A stretch of 64,000 bases of DNA from a bacterium (GTDB lineage Bacteria > Desulfobacterota > Binatia > DP-6), in NCBI GenBank assembly GCA_026129405.1, contig JAHCID010000006.1:62001-126000 (forward strand). Reading direction: 5' to 3'. The position numbers were made by a program, and so were the translations under genes. The notes below the pieces were generated by a model, which made no database searches, was not told where the DNA came from, and saw only the letters and a list, made by a program, of their open reading frames with translations. Shown one piece after another: positions 53,719 to 63,665 of the stretch. Each line of letters begins with the position of its first letter. Positions within the stretch are counted from its first letter, which is position 1.

Positions 53719-56085
53719 ATGAGGACGCGGACAGGTTTTTGTAGGACGGCGATGCTCGCCGTGACGGCCTTCGCCGTCATGGCAACGGCGCCGGCATGGG
53801 CAGGCATCATCGGACTGAGCGCGAGCAAGAACGCCGGCAACAGTCCGGACGAAATCTCTGACGGCCTCCTGTCGAGCTACCAGCGTACCTCGACGGTCGC
53901 GGTCACCAACCTGAGCCCCGGCCTCGTGGCGCGCGTCCGGTACGCGTCCACCGTGGCGACCGACACCGGTCTCCTCACCAGCCGTACCGAGACGCTGAAC
54001 TCGGACTACAACATCAACTTCAACGTCGATGCCCCCGGCGCCTACGACCTCATCATCACCACGAGCCTCAACGGCGCCTTCACGCTCGTGAACGACGGCA
54101 GCGCCGCCGCGACGGCGAGCGGCACGGCCGTGAGCTATACGGGCGGCACACTCGCGAGCGGCGGCCTCGCGCTGACCTCGCCCGGCTCGTTCTCGAGCAA
54201 CAACGGCGGCGACGTGCCGTTCAACCGCACCAACCAGGCCACCATCCAGGGGTCGAGCTACGGTGTGGCCCAGCCGCACTCGCTGCGCTTCACCTGGACC
54301 ACCCAGTGTCAGAGCGGCAGCGGGCTGACGGGCGGCGACGAGTGCGCCGTGCGCCTCGGTCTCCCCGCCACGATCGGCGGCCAGACCGCCGGCGTGTACC
54401 CGGGTGTCGGCAACCGCGTCCAGGCGGACGACGGTCACTTCGTGACCATCTCCTTCGTCTCCCTGTGCGGCAACGGCACGGTCGAGGGCGGCCGCGGTGA
54501 GCAGTGCGACCTCGGAGCCTTCAACGGCCAGCCCGGCTCCTGCTGCACCACGAGCTGCCAGTTCGCTCCCTCGTCGACCCTCTGTCGCGACGTCGCCGGC
54601 GTCTGCGACGTCGCCGACTTCTGCAGCGGCAGCAGCGACACCTGCCCGGCCGACATCAAGCAGCCGAACGGCGCGGCCTGCCCGTCGGACGGCAACCCGT
54701 GCAGCCTCGACGTCTGCGACGGCGTGAACGACGCCTGTCAGCATCCCGCCGGCAACGCCGGTGCCACCTGCCGCGCCTCCGGCGGCATCTGTGACGTGGT
54801 CGAGGTCTGCGACGGCGCCAGCACCGTCTGCCCGGCCGACGCGGTCGCCGACGACACCGTCGTCTGCAACCCGGGATCGGGCGATCTCTGCGACCCCGAC
54901 GAGTACTGTGACGGCGTCAACAAGGCCTGCCCCGCCGACAGCGTGACGGGCGCCTTCGTAGTCTGCCGTCCGGGCTCGGGCGACCTCTGCGATCCGGACG
55001 AGTACTGCACCGGCATCGCCGACCAGGCCTGTCCGCCCGACAGTGTCTCCGGCGCGTTCGTCACCTGCCGCGCCAGCGCCGGCGACTGCGACCCGGCCGA
55101 GTTCTGCACCGGCAACGCCGGCGAGGCCTGCCCCGGCGACGCGCGCGAGCCCAACACCACGCTCTGCCGTGCCGCTGCCGGCGTCTGTGACGTCGCCGAC
55201 TTCTGCGACGGCACCAATGTCGCCTGCCCCGCCGACGCCAAGAGCACCGCGGTCTGCCGCGGCTCGGCCGGCGTCTGCGACATCGTCGACTTCTGCGACG
55301 GTGTGAACAACGACTGCCCCGCGGATGCGCGTCAGCCCAACACTACCGTCTGCCGCCCGGCGGTCGACGCGTGTGACGTGACCGACTACTGCGACGGCAA
55401 CGTCGACTGCCCGGCCGACCAGGTCGTGCCCGACACCGACGGCGACGGCTTCTGCGACGCCATCGACCTCTGCCCGCTGGTCCCCGACCCGCTCCAGCTG
55501 GACAGCGACAACGACGGTCAGGGCGACCTGTGTGACGTCTGCACCCAGCTGCCGCCGGGTACCTTCGGCGACCGCCACAAGGTGCAGATCACGAGCCTCA
55601 ACAAGCCGGTGGGTCAGCAGCGCCTGAAGGCGCAGGCCCGCTGCCTCGGCTACCCGAACGTCGAGAACATCGACGTGGTGGCCAACGGCGTCCGCCTCGT
55701 CGGCACGGCTTCGAACGGGACCGTGATCTTCGACGCTCAGATCCCGGGCGGCGCCTGGAATCAGAGCCAGAAGGCCGGCTGGAAGTCGCACGGCTTCCCG
55801 ACGGGCTTCACGGCCTCCTACTTCAACGCCGGCACGGTGGTTCCGCTGGTGAACGGCTTCCAGCGCGTGAAGTTCGTCACCAAGGCCGGCGTCGGCATCA
55901 CGAAGTTCACGGCGGTGGCGAAGAACGGCGCCTTCCCGCTGGCCGTCAACGGCATCCCCGTGAAGTTCACGATTGCCACCGCGTTCCCGGCGGCGAACGG
56001 CGAGTGCTGCGAGCTGCAGTTCCCCGCCACCGCGCCCGCCAAGCCGAGCTGCGTGCTCTCCGGCAGCAAGGTGACCTGCAAGTAG
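53719..56085 (+). CDS. Secreted cysteine-rich protein with disintegrin-like repeats and TSP3-like calcium motifs
   Basis: A 788-residue exported protein. The signal peptide (1-28) ends in AWA. Residues about 29-250 form a beta-rich adhesin-like domain. A CGNGTVEGGRGEQCD cysteine segment (about 254-285) of the bacterial Cys-rich repeat type follows. Nine tandem repeats of about 32 residues (289-570) have the pattern C(R)...CDxxDxCDGxxxxCPAD, close to the disintegrin domain of metalloproteases, but no protease domain is present. DTDGDGFCDAIDLCP and DSDNDGQGDLCD (about 571-607) are thrombospondin type-3-like calcium motifs. The remaining 180 residues look like a beta-sandwich. It should be disulfide-rich and act outside the cell, probably in adhesion or surface structure (inference). 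Two terminators follow. Confidence 0.88.
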   Translation: MRTRTGFCRTAMLAVTAFAVMATAPAWAGIIGLSASKNAGNSPDEISDGLLSSYQRTSTVAVTNLSPGLVARVRYASTVATDTGLLTSRTETLNSDYNINFNVDAPGAYDLIITTSLNGAFTLVNDGSAAATASGTAVSYTGGTLASGGLALTSPGSFSSNNGGDVPFNRTNQATIQGSSYGVAQPHSLRFTWTTQCQSGSGLTGGDECAVRLGLPATIGGQTAGVYPGVGNRVQADDGHFVTISFVSLCGNGTVEGGRGEQCDLGAFNGQPGSCCTTSCQFAPSSTLCRDVAGVCDVADFCSGSSDTCPADIKQPNGAACPSDGNPCSLDVCDGVNDACQHPAGNAGATCRASGGICDVVEVCDGASTVCPADAVADDTVVCNPGSGDLCDPDEYCDGVNKACPADSVTGAFVVCRPGSGDLCDPDEYCTGIADQACPPDSVSGAFVTCRASAGDCDPAEFCTGNAGEACPGDAREPNTTLCRAAAGVCDVADFCDGTNVACPADAKSTAVCRGSAGVCDIVDFCDGVNNDCPADARQPNTTVCRPAVDACDVTDYCDGNVDCPADQVVPDTDGDGFCDAIDLCPLVPDPLQLDSDNDGQGDLCDVCTQLPPGTFGDRHKVQITSLNKPVGQQRLKAQARCLGYPNVENIDVVANGVRLVGTASNGTVIFDAQIPGGAWNQSQKAGWKSHGFPTGFTASYFNAGTVVPLVNGFQRVKFVTKAGVGITKFTAVAKNGAFPLAVNGIPVKFTIATAFPAANGECCELQFPATAPAKPSCVLSGSKVTCK
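54583..55428 (+). repeat. Nine tandem disintegrin-like coding repeats
   Basis: Units of about 90-100 nt, with near-constant codons for CDVADFCDG and CPAD cores and variable linkers. Units 4 and 5 (GSGDLCDPDEYC) are most alike, suggesting recent duplication. One unit (the second) is divergent. Confidence 0.88.
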
Positions 56086-56344: not shown

Positions 56345-58366
56345 TCAGGCGCGCAGATCGGCGTCGAGCATCGAGAGCAGCGCTTCCGTGAGGGTGGGAT
56401 CGAACTGGCTCCCGGCGCAGCGGCGCAGCTCGGCGACGGCGTCCGCCGCCGGCATCGCGCGCCGGTACGGCCGATCGGTCGTCATCGCGTGCCAGGCGTC
56501 GACCACGGCGATGATGCGCGCGGCGATCGGGATGTCCTCGCCGCACAGCTGCTCCGGATAGCCGCCGCCGTCCCAGTGCTCCTGGCAGGCGTGCGCCACC
56601 GCCGCGAGATGGCGCGTTTCCGGTACCGCGGTGAGCAGCGCCGTGCCGAGCGGGACGTGGCGCTCCATGACGATACGCTCCGTGTCGTCGAGCGGCCCCG
56701 GCTTGAGGAGCACCTCGTCGGGCACGTGCAGCTTGCCGACGTCGTGCAGGACCCCGGCCTGGGCCGCGAGCGCGATCTGGTCCTGCGGCAGGTCGAGGAA
56801 TCGGGCAAGCCGGGCGGCGAGGCCGCCCACCCGCGCCGAGTGCTCGGCCGTCGCAGGGTCCTTCAGCGTCAGCGCATGGAAGAGCGCCCGCACGATGCCG
56901 GCGGTGCCTCGGTAGCCCGGCTCGGGCGCCGGCACCGGCACGGGACCGGCCGCCACCTCGACGCGGTTGCGACCCGCCTGCTTGCCGCGCAGCATCGCCG
57001 CGTCGGCGAGCGTCACGAGGGACGCCGCGTCGGAGCCGTCGTCGGGAAACGTCGCCACGCCGATCGTCGCCGTCACCGCCGGCCCGTCCGGGATGGCGCG
57101 CATGGTCTCCGCCGCGACGGCGGCCCGCACCCGCTCCGCCGCGATAGCGGCGCCGGCACGGTCGACCTCCGGCAGGAGGACGACGAATTCCTCGCCGCCG
57201 TAGCGCGCAATCACGTCGGCCGCCCGCAGCGCGCTGCGCAGCGCCGTGCCGACCGCGCGCAGGACGGCGTCGCCGCGGTCGTGCCCGAGCGTGTCGTTGA
57301 CGCGCTTGAAGTGGTCGAGGTCGAGAAAGAGCACGGCGAGGGGCTGGCGATGGAGACGCGCGCGCCGCAGCTCCTCGCCGAGCCGCCGGTCGAGGTAGCG
57401 CCGGTTCGCGAGGCCGGTGACGGCGTCGGTGCGCGCCGCCGCCTCCGCGGCGGCGAAGCGCTGCGCGGCGTCCAGCGCCAGAGCGGCCTCGACGCAGAAG
57501 AAGCCGGCGAGGCTGCTCGACGCGCGCGCCGGCCCCGGGCCCTGGATCGAGAGCACGCCGATCGGCTCGGCGGCCACGGTGAGCGGCACGTGCTGCACGT
57601 CGTCCGCCTCCACCGCGCGGCGCGTACGCCATGCCTCGGCGACAGGCCCCTCGCCGGCGAGGGCCACCGGCGCCGGCGGCGCCGGCGCGCTGGTCGCGAG
57701 CGGCACGAGGCTCGGCCCGGCCGACACCCACAGCGTCGCGGCCTCCGCACCGAGCAGGGGCTCGGCCAGCTGGACGACGGTCTGCGCGACGCGATCGGCG
57801 GTGACGCCGGCGGCGACGGTCTGGTGCAGGCGCAGGACGGCCGACACGAGCCGCCCGTGGCTCGCCACCTGGGTGCGCAGCCGCTGGCGCTCGGCCAGCA
57901 GCGAGCGCACGAGATCGTTGGCCGGCACCCCACGGACGTCCATGATCTCGTCGCCGAGCACGTCGGCGAGCGGATCGTCGTTCGGATCCTCGGGGTCGCG
58001 GGCGAGCACCTCGGTGACGGCCACGACCAGGTCGACGGTGGCCACGGGCTTGGCGAGGAACGCGCGCGCGCCCATCGCCAGGCACTGGATGCGCGTGGCC
58101 GCGTCGCTGCGGCTCGACGAGAACACCACCGGGATCTTGGCGAGCGTCGGGTCGGCCTGGAGCCGGCGCAGCACGTCGGGCCCGCTCTCGCCCGGCAGCT
58201 CGATGTCGAGCAGCACGAGCGCGGTGTCGGACGCGAGCTTGTGCCAGGCCTCTTCGCCGCTCGCGGCGACGTCGCAGCAGAAGCCGGCCCGTTCCAACGC
58301 CACGCGCATCGCGAGCGCGGTCGCGGCGCTGTCTTCGACGATGAGGATGCGCGGACCTGCCTTCAT
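56345..58366 (-). CDS. REC-GAF-GGDEF-HD-GYP cyclic-di-GMP enzyme
   Basis: A 673-residue soluble regulator. REC (1-120) has its Asp near 54 in VLLDIELPG. A GAF-like domain (about 160-310) follows. The GGDEF domain (about 315-475) has RYGGEEF and an RxxD inhibitory site five residues before it, so cyclase activity with product inhibition is expected. HD-GYP (about 490-650) keeps HDVGK, ERHVPLG and DGGGYP, but the HHE metal motif reads CQE (in ACQEHWDGGGYP), so phosphodiesterase activity is doubtful. Its start overlaps the glucanase stop by 4 nt, making it the last gene of the polysaccharide operon; it probably sets local c-di-GMP. Confidence 0.9.
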   Translation of the reverse strand: MKAGPRILIVEDSAATALAMRVALERAGFCCDVAASGEEAWHKLASDTALVLLDIELPGESGPDVLRRLQADPTLAKIPVVFSSSRSDAATRIQCLAMGARAFLAKPVATVDLVVAVTEVLARDPEDPNDDPLADVLGDEIMDVRGVPANDLVRSLLAERQRLRTQVASHGRLVSAVLRLHQTVAAGVTADRVAQTVVQLAEPLLGAEAATLWVSAGPSLVPLATSAPAPPAPVALAGEGPVAEAWRTRRAVEADDVQHVPLTVAAEPIGVLSIQGPGPARASSSLAGFFCVEAALALDAAQRFAAAEAAARTDAVTGLANRRYLDRRLGEELRRARLHRQPLAVLFLDLDHFKRVNDTLGHDRGDAVLRAVGTALRSALRAADVIARYGGEEFVVLLPEVDRAGAAIAAERVRAAVAAETMRAIPDGPAVTATIGVATFPDDGSDAASLVTLADAAMLRGKQAGRNRVEVAAGPVPVPAPEPGYRGTAGIVRALFHALTLKDPATAEHSARVGGLAARLARFLDLPQDQIALAAQAGVLHDVGKLHVPDEVLLKPGPLDDTERIVMERHVPLGTALLTAVPETRHLAAVAHACQEHWDGGGYPEQLCGEDIPIAARIIAVVDAWHAMTTDRPYRRAMPAADAVAELRRCAGSQFDPTLTEALLSMLDADLRA

Positions 58367-59466
58367 ACGCCCGGATAGCCCTCCCCGACCGCGAGCCCGA
58401 ACCAGGCCCAGTTGAGGTCGTAGTAACGGTCTGGCGCGCGCAGGATCGGCCGCAGCGCGGCCTGCGAGAGCCGTCCCGCGCGCAGCCGGCGTGCGGCTTC
58501 CGGCGCGTGCTGCTCGAACGCCGGGAGCACGCAGCCGTAGAAGCTGAGCGACTCCTCGTCGCTCTCCGCCCTACCGTCGAGCGCGTAGCGCGTGACGAGC
58601 CGGCCGTCGCGCTCGAGGCGTGCGGCCAGCGCCGCGGCGTGGAGCGGATCGGCGCACGCGACGGGCCGACCGTGCAGCCGGCAGTCGGCGGCCAGGCGCA
58701 TGTAGAGGCGGACCGCGTCGAACGAGAACGCCCGGCTCAGCGTCGACCCGGCCGGCAGCGGCGCCACGCCGCCGTCCGGCGTCGCCACCATGAAGTCGGG
58801 CGGGAACACGACGCCCGGTCGCGCCATCGCGGCGGCGAGGAGCGCGTAGCCGGTGTCGAGTGCCTGCTCCCAGCCCCCGTCGGGATCGGCGCGGGCGAAG
58901 TCGCCGTAGGCGTACGGCAGGAAGTACGAGAGGTTGACGATGCGCTCGCCGACCGCCCAGTTGCCGGCGCTCGGGAACCAGCCCGCACCGACCGGGATGC
59001 CGGTGTGCGTCCGCACCGCGCGCAGGATCTCCGCCGCACGCGCGACGAGCCAGGGACGCTCGAAGCGTCTCGCCGCCATCAGCAGCGCTTCCGCGATCTC
59101 CTGGTCGCCGTCGGTGGCGGTGTTGGCGTCGAGGATGCGGCCGCCGTCGCGCGGCGTCCAGCGCCAGGCGTACATGCCGTCGGGGCGCCGCAGCGTGCGC
59201 TCGGTCCAGGCGAAGACGCGGTCGAAGGTCTCGGTGTCGCCCTCCCAGGCGGCGCGCAGGAGGGCGTAGCCCTGCCCTTCCGAGATCACCTCGCCCTCCC
59301 CGCGCGTGCGATCGAGGACGTAGCCCTCGGGCGACACGTACGTCGCCACGTAGTCGGTCCACGCCGTGCGCAGGAAGGTGGGCAACGGGACCTCGGTGCG
59401 CGACGCGCAGCCGGCGAGCAGGATGGCGAGGCCGAGGCCGACGAACGCCGGGAACGTGCGGCTCAT
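58363..59466 (-). CDS. bcsZ: Endo-1,4-beta-glucanase, GH8 family lipoprotein (BcsZ-like)
   Basis: A 367-residue periplasmic glycan hydrolase that edits nascent beta-glucan. The lipobox is LLAGC (about 16-20). GH8 signatures are GEGEVISEGQGYALLRAAW (about 58-76; catalytic Glu) and DANTATDGDQEIAEALL (about 113-129; catalytic Asp), with NLSYFLPYAYGDFA further on. Length and order match BcsZ. It overlaps the barrel gene upstream and the c-di-GMP enzyme downstream by 4 nt each. Confidence 0.92.
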   Translation of the reverse strand: MSRTFPAFVGLGLAILLAGCASRTEVPLPTFLRTAWTDYVATYVSPEGYVLDRTRGEGEVISEGQGYALLRAAWEGDTETFDRVFAWTERTLRRPDGMYAWRWTPRDGGRILDANTATDGDQEIAEALLMAARRFERPWLVARAAEILRAVRTHTGIPVGAGWFPSAGNWAVGERIVNLSYFLPYAYGDFARADPDGGWEQALDTGYALLAAAMARPGVVFPPDFMVATPDGGVAPLPAGSTLSRAFSFDAVRLYMRLAADCRLHGRPVACADPLHAAALAARLERDGRLVTRYALDGRAESDEESLSFYGCVLPAFEQHAPEAARRLRAGRLSQAALRPILRAPDRYYDLNWAWFGLAVGEGYPGV

Positions 59467-62059
59467 CGGAAGGCCACCTCGACGCGGGCCATCGCCCGCC
59501 AGAGCCAGTAGTCGTCGGTGCCGTCCCAGAAACCGAACCCCGCGACGCCGACGCGCGCCGGGCCGACCTGCACGCTGAGATCGACGAGCGCGTGCCCGCC
59601 CGGCGCGACGTCGCCGGCGCTGCCGATGATCATCTGCGGGTTCAGCTCCGCTTCGAGCCGCACCCGGCCGTGCTCCTGGATCGTGTGCCCCATGAGGCCG
59701 ATCGCGGAGTGGACGCGCGGGCTGAAGTAGGCCGGCCGATCCGGATCGGAGAAGGCTTCCACGTAGCCGTTCGGGCGCAGGACGGTCCACGAGCCCGGGC
59801 GCGCGTCGAGCGGCAGCTGGTAGTGTACGTAGCCGGTGCCGCGCACGTTGCCGTCCTCGTAGTGCTGGATGCCCAGCTCGGCGTAGAGCCGGTCGTCGGC
59901 GCCGTCGCGCAGGTGCTTGTCGAGCCCGAGGCGGCCGCCGTCGACGGCGAAGCTCGGACCCAGGGCCTCAAGGTCGATGATGCGGTTCCAGGCGCGGATC
60001 TCGTTGTCGTCGTGCGCCGTCAGGAGCGACTCGCGCCGGCCCGTGAGCGTCAGCGTGGAGGTGTCGCGGAAGTACTTGCGCACGCTGGCGTCGGCGATCG
60101 CGAGCGCGCCGCTCCCGGCCCCCCCGGCATAGTTCTCGAAGCCGGCGCGGCCGGCGAGCTCGAGGTCGGGGCGCACGTACCAGCGGTCGACACCGATCGT
60201 GGCGCCGGTGCGGGTGTAGTCGACGTCGCGCTGCTCGACCACGCCGGCGAGCGCCTGCGCCGTCAGCCGCAGCGCCGGCGACGGCCAGAAGAAGCCGCTG
60301 GCGACGCCCTCGGAGAGACGGATGTCGTTGGCGTCGCCGAAGAACACGGGGCGCAACCCGGCGCCGGGCGCGAGCGCGCGCGCCAGACGGTCCGCGGCGA
60401 CGACCCCGCGCAGCACGGCGCCGCCGGCGACAGCGTCGTGGTAGGCCCCGGCGGCGCGCGCGTAGTCGCCGCGGCGCACGGCCGCGTCGCCTTCGAGCAG
60501 CGCCAGGTCGGCACGCAGCGGCGGCGTGCACCCGTCGCAGGCCGCCACCAGCGCGCGGCGCGTCCTCCTCGGCGGCGAGATGGCGGTCGCGCGCCATCGC
60601 CGCGCGCGGCAGGCGGGATCGTCGCTGGCGGCGACCGCGGCGACCGCGAACAGCGGCTCCACCTCGCCGCGCCGGCCCTGGAGCGCCACGCTCTGCGCCA
60701 GCGCGAGCCGGGTCTCGGCGTCGCCCGTGCCCTCGGCAGTGCCCGCAACGCCTCGGCTTCGGCCTCGGCGTAGCGGCCGCCGGCGGCGCGGTGCGGGCGA
60801 TCTCGGTATGCAGGCCGTCGCCGCCGCGCGCAGCCTCGACCGCCGATAGGCCGCGAGCGCGCGCGCCCGGCTCGCCGGCGTTGACCCGTCCGTGCAGCCT
60901 CGAGCCGTGCCGCCACGTCGTCGGGACGCGCGGCGAGGTAGCGCGCGTAGCCGTCGACCGCGGCCATGCGCGCCGAGGCCGGCGGCGGCGCGGGCCGCGG
61001 CCAGCATCTTCTCCGGGCTCGCCGGCAGCGTCGCCGCCGCGGCCGCAACGCCGCCCTGCGCGCGCGGCGTCTTCGTCGCCGATCCGGCGATCGTGGTCGG
61101 CGAGCCAGGCCCGCTCGTCGAGGTCGAGCGGCGCGCGCCGCTCGGGCGGGCGAGCGTCGCCGCGGCGAGCGCATCCTCGGCTGCCGCCAGCGCGCCACGC
61201 GGGCGAGCGCTCGCAGCGCCGTGGGATCGTCGGGGCGGGCCGCCAGCACGGCCTCCTGCGACGCCTGCGCCGTGGTCGCCGGCCCATTCCTCGAGCCCGG
61301 CAGCGGACGCGCTCGGCGATGAGCAACCCGTCCGGGGCCGCACGTGCGACAGCGCCTCGCGCGCCGCCGCGCAGTCCCCCGCTCACGAGCGCGACCTCGG
61401 CCTGCACCATGCGCGCGTCCGGGTCGCGCGGCCGGCGCGTCAACCAGCGTCAGTGAGCGGCGCCCACCTCCGCGCCGCGGCCGGCCCAGAGCGCGGTGTG
61501 CGCGGCGAGCCGGAGCGCCACCGGGTCGTCCGCGGCAGCGTGCGCGCGATCGGCCAGGCCTCGTCCCCAGCGCCCCGCGACGTTGAGCGCGTGCACGCGG
61601 GCGACGCGGGCGGCGACGCTGCTTACCGGCGGGGCGAGGCGGTGCCGCAGACGCGCTCCGCGCTCCGCCGCCGCGGCCTCCCGCAGCGGCGACGCTGCCC
61701 GCAGCCACGCCACCGCCCGCCAGGGCCCCCGCCGCCGCCGCGCCGGTCGCAGCGTCGGCCGCACCGGCGCCGGCCGTCTCCGCGGCCCGGCGACCTGCTC
61801 GTCGTCGTCCGCCGCCGCGCCCCGCGCCGCCGCCGCGCCCACAGCGCCGGCGTGCCCGCCGCCCACCGGCATTGGCGCGCGCCGCCGCCACGGCCGGCGC
61901 CGCCGGTGTGGCGGTCGCGCGCCGGGGCCGCGAGCCGGCCGCGAGCTCGCGCCCGGCGTCGACCCAGAAGCCCGGCTCGAGGCGATCGAGGAGCAGCATG
62001 ATGGCCCCGGCCCAGAGGCCGAGCAGGAGTGCGCGCCTAAGCGACTTTCGAGCGACCAT
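59463..62059 (-). pseudogene. TPR / outer-membrane beta-barrel exporter (BcsC-like), multiply frameshifted
   Basis: Coding sequence is recognisable over the whole span but in shifting frames. It starts MVARKSLRRALLLGLWAG (a membrane anchor or signal, 62059). TPR-like pieces include a HALNVAGRWGRGLADRA segment (near 61550), EAVLAARPDDPTALRALARV (near 61220), VDGYARYLAARPDDVAARLE (near 60920) and DAETRLALAQSVALQGR (near 60700). An intact C-terminal frame from about 60550 to the stop encodes about 360 residues of outer-membrane beta-barrel ending in MARVEVAFR. At least seven frame changes are needed between 61920 and 60550. It overlaps the synthase gene (23 nt) and bcsZ (4 nt), the place of bcsC. 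Either decayed, or affected by clustered sequencing errors. Confidence 0.75.
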
Positions 62060-63665
62060 AGAACTCGAGCGGGTGGCGGCGCGGCGCCCAGCGATGGCGT
62101 CCCAGCGCCGCATCGAGCGCGCTCCACAGCGTCCAGATGGCGACCGCGGACACGAGCGCGTTGACGGCGATCACCCGCGCCGACGTGGTGTGCGCCAGCG
62201 CGGCATAGAGCGGCAGGAAGAGGTTCGCAGCGATGAGCACGACCTGCGGCAGCACTGCGAGGACCGCCGGACGGCGGCGACGCTTGCCGGCGTTGTTGGG
62301 CCGATAGCCCGGCTTACCGCGACGCCAGCGCAGGGCCCGCAGCGTCCCCATGAGGTAGATCGGGAAGAAGCCGACGAGCATCTGGAACTGGCGCCCCGGC
62401 TGCTCGCCGCGGGCGAGATAGCGCAGCGCCCAGGCCATGGCGCCGAAGTAGACGCCGCGCGCGATCGCGAAGTGCACGGCGGAGCAGAGCAGGACCTCCT
62501 GCCCGGTGACGTAGGTCCACGGCGGCACCACGAAGAGGAACGGCACCGCGAAGCCGACGGTGAGATAGGTGAAACCGATGAGGAAGTAGTTGAGCCGCTT
62601 GCGCCACGGGAGCCCGCGCTTCACCAGCGGGTTGTCCCAGAAGAAGAGGCGCATGGTGTCGAGCGCCCACTGTCCGCGCTGCCGGTACACGCCCCACACG
62701 TCCTCGGGCGCGAGACCCTCCGAGAGCGGGTACGGATAGTAGAACGACTTCCAGCCCTTCGCGTGCAGGTGGTACGAGGTCGTCAGATCCTCGACCAGGT
62801 TCCAGGTCGCGAAGCCGCCGATGTCCTCGAGCGCCGCACGCCGGTAGAGTACGCCGGAGCCGCACGAGATCACGGTGTCGTGCGCATCCATGGCGAGTTG
62901 CACGGCGCCGTAGAACACGCGGTCCTCGTTGAAGAGCGGATCGCCCTCGGCGACGAGGTACGACTGCCGCGACTGGACGAACGCGAGGCGCTCGAAGCGG
63001 AAGTAGCCGGCCAGCGACTCGAGGATGTCGGGGTGCGGGACCTGGTCCGCGTCGAGCACGAGCACGAGATCGCCGTGCGAGCGCGCGAGACCGAAGTTCA
63101 TGTTCCCGGCCTTGGCGTCGTCCTTCGCGACGCCGTCGCGGGGCCGCGAGTGGTAGGCGAAGCCGAGCCGCCGCACGACGGCCTCGACGTCGGCCGAGCC
63201 GCCGTCGTCGAGCACGTGCACGGCGAGCGGCCCCGACCAGCGGATGCGCGTCACCGCCTCGAGCGTGGTCGTGATCACCTCGATCGGCTCGCCGCACACC
63301 GGCACGAGCACGTCGATGGCGTACGCCTTCTCCGGCACCGGCGATCGCCGCGGCTTGAAGCGCAGCCGCCAGAGGCTGGAGCCGCCGATGGTGAACAGGA
63401 CGAGGCAGGCGCTCTCGCTGAGCAGGAACGCGATCCCCATGAGGAGATGCGCCGGGTTGATCGCCGTCGCGACCCACCCGATGTAGACGCCGCCGGTGAC
63501 GACGGTGAGGAGGACGAGGGCCTGGGCGCGGATGCGCCGCGGCCGATCCTCCCCGTCCCCGAAGCGCCGGTACGTGATCTCCTCGGGACGCAGCGCCTCC
63601 TCGAGCAACCCACCGATCACCGGCACCCGACCGTACCAACGCCGCGGGCGCTCCATCACGGTCAT
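62037..63665 (-). CDS. bcsA: GT2 family beta-glycan synthase, cellulose synthase-like (no PilZ)
   Basis: A 542-residue inner-membrane processive glycosyltransferase. Two membrane helices (about 45-95) precede the GT domain: VHVLDDGGSADV (about 151-162), DD-x-D site LDADQVPH, GSGVLYRRAAL and the TED-like VEDLTTSYHLHAKGW, then YRQRGQWALDTM. Four or five more helices follow. Compared with BcsA the C-terminal PilZ domain is missing and the Q-x-x-R-W motif reads QRGQW. The product may therefore be cellulose or another beta-glucan; the symbol is by analogy. Start ATG 63665; ATG 63656 is possible. It leads the four-gene exopolysaccharide operon. Confidence 0.85.
   Translation of the reverse strand: MTVMERPRRWYGRVPVIGGLLEEALRPEEITYRRFGDGEDRPRRIRAQALVLLTVVTGGVYIGWVATAINPAHLLMGIAFLLSESACLVLFTIGGSSLWRLRFKPRRSPVPEKAYAIDVLVPVCGEPIEVITTTLEAVTRIRWSGPLAVHVLDDGGSADVEAVVRRLGFAYHSRPRDGVAKDDAKAGNMNFGLARSHGDLVLVLDADQVPHPDILESLAGYFRFERLAFVQSRQSYLVAEGDPLFNEDRVFYGAVQLAMDAHDTVISCGSGVLYRRAALEDIGGFATWNLVEDLTTSYHLHAKGWKSFYYPYPLSEGLAPEDVWGVYRQRGQWALDTMRLFFWDNPLVKRGLPWRKRLNYFLIGFTYLTVGFAVPFLFVVPPWTYVTGQEVLLCSAVHFAIARGVYFGAMAWALRYLARGEQPGRQFQMLVGFFPIYLMGTLRALRWRRGKPGYRPNNAGKRRRRPAVLAVLPQVVLIAANLFLPLYAALAHTTSARVIAVNALVSAVAIWTLWSALDAALGRHRWAPRRHPLEFYGRSKVA

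Follow-up and report, generated by a model that had tools for sequence, protein, structure and literature searches.

A putative four-gene operon for exopolysaccharide secretion

The window analysed here is a stretch of 64,000 nucleotides from a bacterium of the class Binatia (Desulfobacterota), whose genome is 100% complete and 5.6 Mb in size. Close to its end, four minus-strand genes (63,665-56,345), read from the sequence, encode in succession a GT2 synthase, a tetratricopeptide repeat (TPR)/beta-barrel protein, a GH8 lipoprotein and a REC-GAF-GGDEF-HD-GYP protein. The synthase and TPR/barrel genes overlap by 23 nucleotides, and the two following junctions, TPR/GH8 and GH8/cyclase, each overlap by 4 nucleotides (ATGA). 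A first-pass annotation had described four overlapping minus-strand genes; the order, the domains and the overlaps hold, whereas no single open reading frame (ORF) covers the TPR/barrel gene, because 10 frame switches interrupt it. We interpret the locus as a synthase-dependent exopolysaccharide secretion operon, free of BcsB and PilZ, whose synthase comes from a separate clade of the BcsA superfamily with a QxxQW motif and makes a beta-glycan, and we assign this interpretation a probability of about 0.68. The operon comprises the following features:

62037..63665, minus strand: GT2 synthase of ~542 amino acids with a BcsA-like fold and the motif QRGQW, without a PilZ domain and without the FxVTxK gating loop
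59463..62059, minus strand: putative TPR/beta-barrel export protein of BcsC/PgaA-like layout, its TPR part frame-shifted in the assembly and its barrel starting from ~60,350
60351..62050, no strand: island of high G+C content (GC), up to 0.877, site of 10 frame switches
58363..59466, minus strand: GH8 glucanase, a lipoprotein with the lipobox LAGC, retaining the BcsZ-type catalytic Glu (SEGQGY) and Asp (SFDAVRLYM)
56345..58366, minus strand: REC-GAF(weak)-GGDEF-HD-GYP protein with GGEEF, an intact RxxD inhibition site (I-site) and a degenerate HD-GYP domain

A BcsA-like synthase with a modified signature motif

The synthase matches the Pfam families PF13632 and PF13641 and, in part, CelA. It scores 198 bits against the BcsA profile TIGR03030 (cut-off 699) and 58 bits against the PgaC profile TIGR03937 (cut-off 422); both values fall below the cut-offs, and no profile placed the protein in a known family. 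An AlphaFold2 model computed from 12 sequences (mean predicted local distance difference test score (pLDDT) 71, predicted template modelling score (pTM) 0.65) shows the GT-A domain and channel fold of BcsA, and in Foldseek its best matches are bacterial BcsA structures, with template modelling (TM) scores of 0.72-0.75 and E values of 1e-24 to 1e-22. Only ~20 residues extend beyond the last predicted transmembrane helix, which therefore leaves no room for a PilZ domain or for a C-terminal domain of the BgsA type; a profile search of the synthase likewise detected no PilZ domain.

The GT-A motifs DDG, DAD and VED are retained, and the position of QxxRW reads QRGQW. This substitution, already singled out in the first-pass annotation, is truly present yet not peculiar to the window gene: QRxQW marks 29 of the 30 members of the clade, the lone exception (L084) being a degraded sequence. 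Since the motif is conserved throughout the close family, we rejected the idea that it reflects a sequencing error or an inactive enzyme. By comparison, QxxRW occurs in all six reference synthases, namely E. coli BcsA, PgaC and NfrB, Agrobacterium CrdS, Sinorhizobium BgsA and a Jannaschia synthase; the CrdS and BgsA references come from plasmid records with no annotation or a generic one, in which they were recognized by their position, their neighbours and their similarity, not by name. The gating loop is altered as well, with YRPNN in the window synthase and YRVNN-like sequences in its relatives at the position of FNVTAK in E. coli BcsA, and FxVTxK is retained in BcsA, BgsA, CrdS and the Jannaschia protein. 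The loop is lost in the window's half of the QRxQW clade, and a sister group within the clade stays closer to it (YRVTVK or YRVNVK). PMC6821405 describes what QxxRW and the gating loop do.

In a phylogenetic tree, the window synthase groups with one from Gemmatimonadales (support 100/98) inside the QRxQW clade, and this clade stands apart from BcsA, CrdS and BgsA with support of 88/100, although its deep branches are long and the order in which they split is uncertain. The protein apparently represents a so far unrecognized lineage within the cellulose synthase family. One distant relative (L084/L103, genome G812 of a Gemmatimonadota sample) reads ERGGK, has further motifs that look degraded and adjoins no TPR gene; it may be dead or repurposed. 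L084 falls within the clade but, having lost QxxQW and other motifs, is omitted from the family description.

BcsB and PilZ are absent from the genome

In searches at Pfam sensitivity, BcsB was found in none of 19 genomes, comprising the window's own and 18 others that encode either the synthase or the degraded relative. No PilZ domain was detected anywhere in the window's own genome; PilZ proteins occur in 17 of the 18 other genomes, and none of them lies in the operons that we read. The absence of BcsB and PilZ, first proposed from the window, therefore extends to the complete genome, and neither a bcsB gene nor a PilZ protein turned up close by outside the window.

These searches bear on one alternative, a standard bcs cellulose operon with its BcsB or PilZ encoded elsewhere. 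The BcsA-like fold and the joint presence of GH8 and TPR/barrel genes are what such an operon would show; against it, a 100% complete genome lacks both components, BcsB is missing from 18 further genomes with the synthase, and the key BcsA motifs are gone from the protein. At Pfam sensitivity we reject this alternative, and we rate its probability as very low. The genome and profile searches, together with the tree, support the earlier proposal of a minimal export system that resembles BcsA and has neither BcsB nor PilZ.

The synthase and the TPR/barrel protein form a conserved pair

A contig scan recovered 23 relatives of 42-51% identity, mostly from Desulfobacca and other deltaproteobacterial metagenome-assembled genomes (MAGs), with one from a Gemmatimonadales MAG. 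In all 23, the synthase gene is followed directly by a gene for a TPR protein that overlaps or abuts it. Twenty-two of these TPR proteins fall into one cluster; the Gemmatimonadales protein is TPR-rich and too divergent to join. Full-length members measure ~1,320-1,470 amino acids, and two that were scanned give a weak match to a PgaA-type barrel. The third gene differs from that in the window: it encodes an M48 peptidase-like lipoprotein in 19 of the 19 loci that reach far enough (four by Pfam, the rest by clustering). Given a pair present in all relatives and a third gene that differs, the synthase and the TPR/barrel protein are the conserved core of the system and the third gene is variable. 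The relatives' M48 lipoprotein (L040:12331-13524 and 18 other loci) has a weak PDZ match and is reminiscent of outer-membrane assembly proteases.

The QRxQW sister group is organized differently. Its synthases adjoin a GH26 gene in the four loci scanned (L092, L093, L094 and L096; L095 is partial), with a BcsS-like protein in two of them (L093 and L094), and Pfam identifies a SPOR domain at the C-terminus of the L093 synthase. This group may constitute a second system for export, distinct from the first.

Scored at the level of the family, the synthase is found in 17 of 395 genomes sampled from the phylum, and two families account for 16 of these; within the class it occurs in 1 of 148, the window's own. 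This patchy distribution suggests horizontal transfer into the window's lineage.

Frame switches in the TPR/barrel gene

No single frame spans the TPR/barrel gene, and the pattern of GC by codon position is lost at ~62.0-60.7 kb. The most probable codon-usage (Viterbi) path contains 10 frame switches at 61,873-60,753 and none in the other three operon genes; by the same path, other ORFs of the window, some of them doubtful calls, show 0 to 3 switches. The switches coincide with the window's GC peak (60,351-62,050, up to 0.877), and the gene reads cleanly only in its C-terminal part (~60,750-59,463). Both ends resemble the relatives' proteins. The N-terminus (~62,059-61,960) encodes a transmembrane anchor followed by FW, as in the relatives, and 181 columns of a profile made from the relatives' barrels align with the window barrel (P = 2e-4); with the relatives' barrel hidden Markov model (HMM), the window barrel is the best of all window frames (E = 0.0012). 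The frame-shifted gene gave no Pfam match, a search of solved structures with the barrel profile returned no match, and a fold model of the barrel alone was uninformative (pLDDT 35). No close relative provides an intact copy of the gene, as the system is found in no other genome of the class.

Two explanations of the switches were weighed. If the locus were decaying in this organism, the TPR/barrel gene would be a pseudogene and the polymer would not be exported. Such decay would account for the 10 switches and the lack of a gene-spanning frame, but the other three operon genes keep full codon periodicity with zero switches, the disruptions are limited to the window's most GC-rich stretch, and TPR-like segments persist in several frames. 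Moreover, the essential genes tsf, pyrH, frr and uppS in the window are intact, so that we rejected poor sequence throughout the genome as the cause and regard the fault as local, as expected of read errors at extreme GC. We therefore consider decay improbable and prefer a local sequencing error over a real pseudogene.

The GH8 hydrolase and the likely product

The third protein contains a GH8 domain (PF01270, 2e-30), and its catalytic Glu and Asp match those of E. coli BcsZ by alignment; against the NCBIfam BcsZ profile it scores 113 bits, below the cut-off of 299. In a sample of 297 genomes, GH8 was present in 11 of 11 with the synthase versus 11 of 286 without it (Fisher 2e-14, ignoring relatedness), most positives coming from two families. 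GH8 is unlinked to the synthase in the relatives checked, and the Gemmatimonadales genome with the synthase has no GH8.

Most likely, the four-gene cluster makes and exports a cellulose-like slime polymer. A product other than a glucan was also considered, for example a mannan or a beta-glycan with uronic acid or galactose units, of which the GH8 protein would be the hydrolase. Every member of the close family shows the Arg-to-Gln change, the hydrolase of the sister branch is of family GH26, which includes mannanases and mixed-linkage glucanases, and a sugar-nucleotide epimerase/dehydratase-like gene lies just upstream in 12 relatives, though below every curated cut-off. These features give the idea some appeal. 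On the other hand, cellulose synthases are the nearest proteins in both fold and sequence, and a GH8 enzyme with BcsZ-like catalytic residues suits a beta-1,4-glucan. On balance, a non-glucan product appears unlikely, and we retain the cellulose-like polymer as the probable product.

The cyclase and its place in the c-di-GMP network

Profile searches of the fourth protein identify GGDEF (PF00990, 4e-48), HD_5 (4e-37) and REC (2e-20) domains, along with a weak GAF match below the cut-off. The receiver Asp, the GGEEF active site and the RxxD inhibition site are all intact. By contrast, the HD-GYP half carries CQE for HHE, as the first-pass annotation had noticed, and has lost the Glu of the ExRDP motif; these residues act as metal ligands in the HD-GYP family, and the HD-GYP proteins near related operons retain HHE. 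From these residues, the suggestion that the enzyme is mainly a cyclase gains support: the protein is probably a cyclase only, with a dead phosphodiesterase half.

The genome encodes just three GGDEF proteins, the best-scoring of which sits in the operon. Three GGDEF proteins and zero PilZ in 5.6 Mb make for an unusually small cyclic di-GMP (c-di-GMP) network. When receptor domains (PilZ and MshEN) were sought in the genome, only MshEN was found, in five copies, none in the operon; the one MshEN protein that was read is a PilB-like ATPase. In BcsA, c-di-GMP is transmitted through the PilZ domain and the gating loop. As PilZ, the gating loop and a C-terminal domain are all absent here, any effect of c-di-GMP on the synthase would most likely be indirect or exerted at a site other than PilZ, and not by gating of the BcsA type.

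What ties c-di-GMP to the synthase is gene linkage, from which we infer that the cyclase controls the polysaccharide system. It might instead be a passenger that shares the transcript while supplying c-di-GMP to targets elsewhere, for example type IV pilus ATPases with MshEN. The operon has no known c-di-GMP receptor domain while the genome has five MshEN domains, and the relatives' operon lacks a cyclase, HD-GYP or GGDEF genes lying downstream on the other strand at some loci only. However, the ATGA overlap with the GH8 gene and the mere three GGDEF proteins in the genome favour a dedicated role, and an HD-GYP-type gene is found several kb downstream in eight relatives too. We thus hold the passenger role to be rather doubtful and keep control of the polysaccharide system as the preferred function. 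Genes for a histidine kinase, a response regulator and an HD-GYP protein recur several kb downstream on the other strand at L032:17109-20030, L043:12747-15883 and L044:7923-11053.

A proposed mechanism and its genomic surroundings

In the mechanism that we propose, the receiver domain would be phosphorylated, presumably, and the fourth protein would then make c-di-GMP, which would alter the output of the synthase by a route probably not of the BcsA gating type. Starting from a UDP-sugar, most likely UDP-glucose, the synthase would build a beta-linked chain and, with no BcsB to assist, pass it through the membrane channel that it forms itself. From there, the TPR/beta-barrel protein would convey the chain over the periplasm and the outer membrane, and the GH8 lipoprotein may trim or clear the polymer. 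The residues retained in the cyclase and in the hydrolase lend plausibility to their respective steps. Computation establishes the gene order, the family and fold of the synthase, the absent components, the conserved synthase-TPR/barrel pair and the co-occurrence of GH8, whereas the substrate, the product, the barrel's part in export and control by the cyclase are inferred.

Several points weigh against this interpretation of the locus. For every member of the QxxQW clade, product and activity are predictions; the TPR gene is frame-shifted in the present assembly; the window arrangement is represented by a single genome, as the window's own is the sole one among 148 of the class to have the system; and GH8 and cyclase genes lie inside the operon only in the window, the relatives having the M48 lipoprotein as third gene.

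No other polysaccharide genes were seen adjoining the operon. Upstream, a gene from 63,810 runs in the opposite direction and exits the window; its start resembles cysteine synthase, a name given from sequence and not by profile. Downstream, a convergent plus-strand gene (53,719-56,085) encodes a secreted-looking protein with many cysteine-rich repeats (CDVADFCDG-like).

Comparison with known systems

PilZ-less beta-glucan synthases (CrdS and BgsA), BcsB-less cyanobacterial systems (PMC12430437) and TPR/barrel exporters with GH8 (bcs and pga) are already known. In the literature searched we found no account of the QxxQW clade and its conserved pairing with a TPR/barrel protein: a search on the QxxQW-type motif, with subscription journals outside its reach, returned no paper on such a synthase family. 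The QxxRW arginine and the FxVTxK loop are regarded as standard in bacterial beta-glucan synthases, and a clade that replaces both and lacks BcsB and PilZ is a naturally occurring experiment on what polymerization, translocation and switching require. With three GGDEF proteins and zero PilZ, the window's own genome also provides a simple background for studying how the c-di-GMP signal is relayed to exopolysaccharide secretion. More tentatively, and with the odds somewhat against it, the clade could be an undescribed processive GT2 lineage (QxxQW, with the gating loop lost in the window's half) in which a single BcsB-less protein is both polymerase and translocase, combined with outer-membrane and hydrolase modules that can replace one another (TPR/barrel plus GH8 or M48; BcsS-like plus GH26), and whose product or gating is unlike that of BcsA, CrdS or BgsA.

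Bcs operons (BcsA, BcsC, BcsZ) share with the window the synthase fold, the GT2 catalytic motifs and an operon that joins GH8 with a TPR/beta-barrel exporter, putative in the window. The window operon differs in lacking BcsB, PilZ and FxVTxK, in having QxxQW for QxxRW and a shorter synthase N-terminus, and in scoring far below the TIGR03030 cut-off. BgsA, the mixed-linkage beta-glucan synthase of Sinorhizobium, is likewise a BcsA-like synthase without PilZ, but has QRERW and FKVTPK, neither of which is present in the window synthase, and a c-di-GMP-binding C-terminal domain of ~139 amino acids (PMC5567048) as against a tail of ~20 residues. The curdlan synthase CrdS of Agrobacterium is also a PilZ-less beta-glucan synthase of the BcsA superfamily; it carries QRTRW and FKVTEK, has other flanking genes and lies outside the QxxQW clade. 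With the Pga system for poly-N-acetylglucosamine, the window shares a putative TPR/beta-barrel porin of the PgaA type (by the weak barrel match in relatives), whereas its synthase reaches 58 bits against the PgaC cut-off of 422 and PgaB and PgaD do not adjoin. Finally, the Type IV/cyanobacterial systems (XcsA with an HlyD-like protein) also use a BcsA-like synthase without BcsB; they combine HlyD-like and TolC-type exporters with a PilZ or PCR domain (PMC12430437), whereas the window synthase has neither domain and is paired with a TPR/barrel protein.

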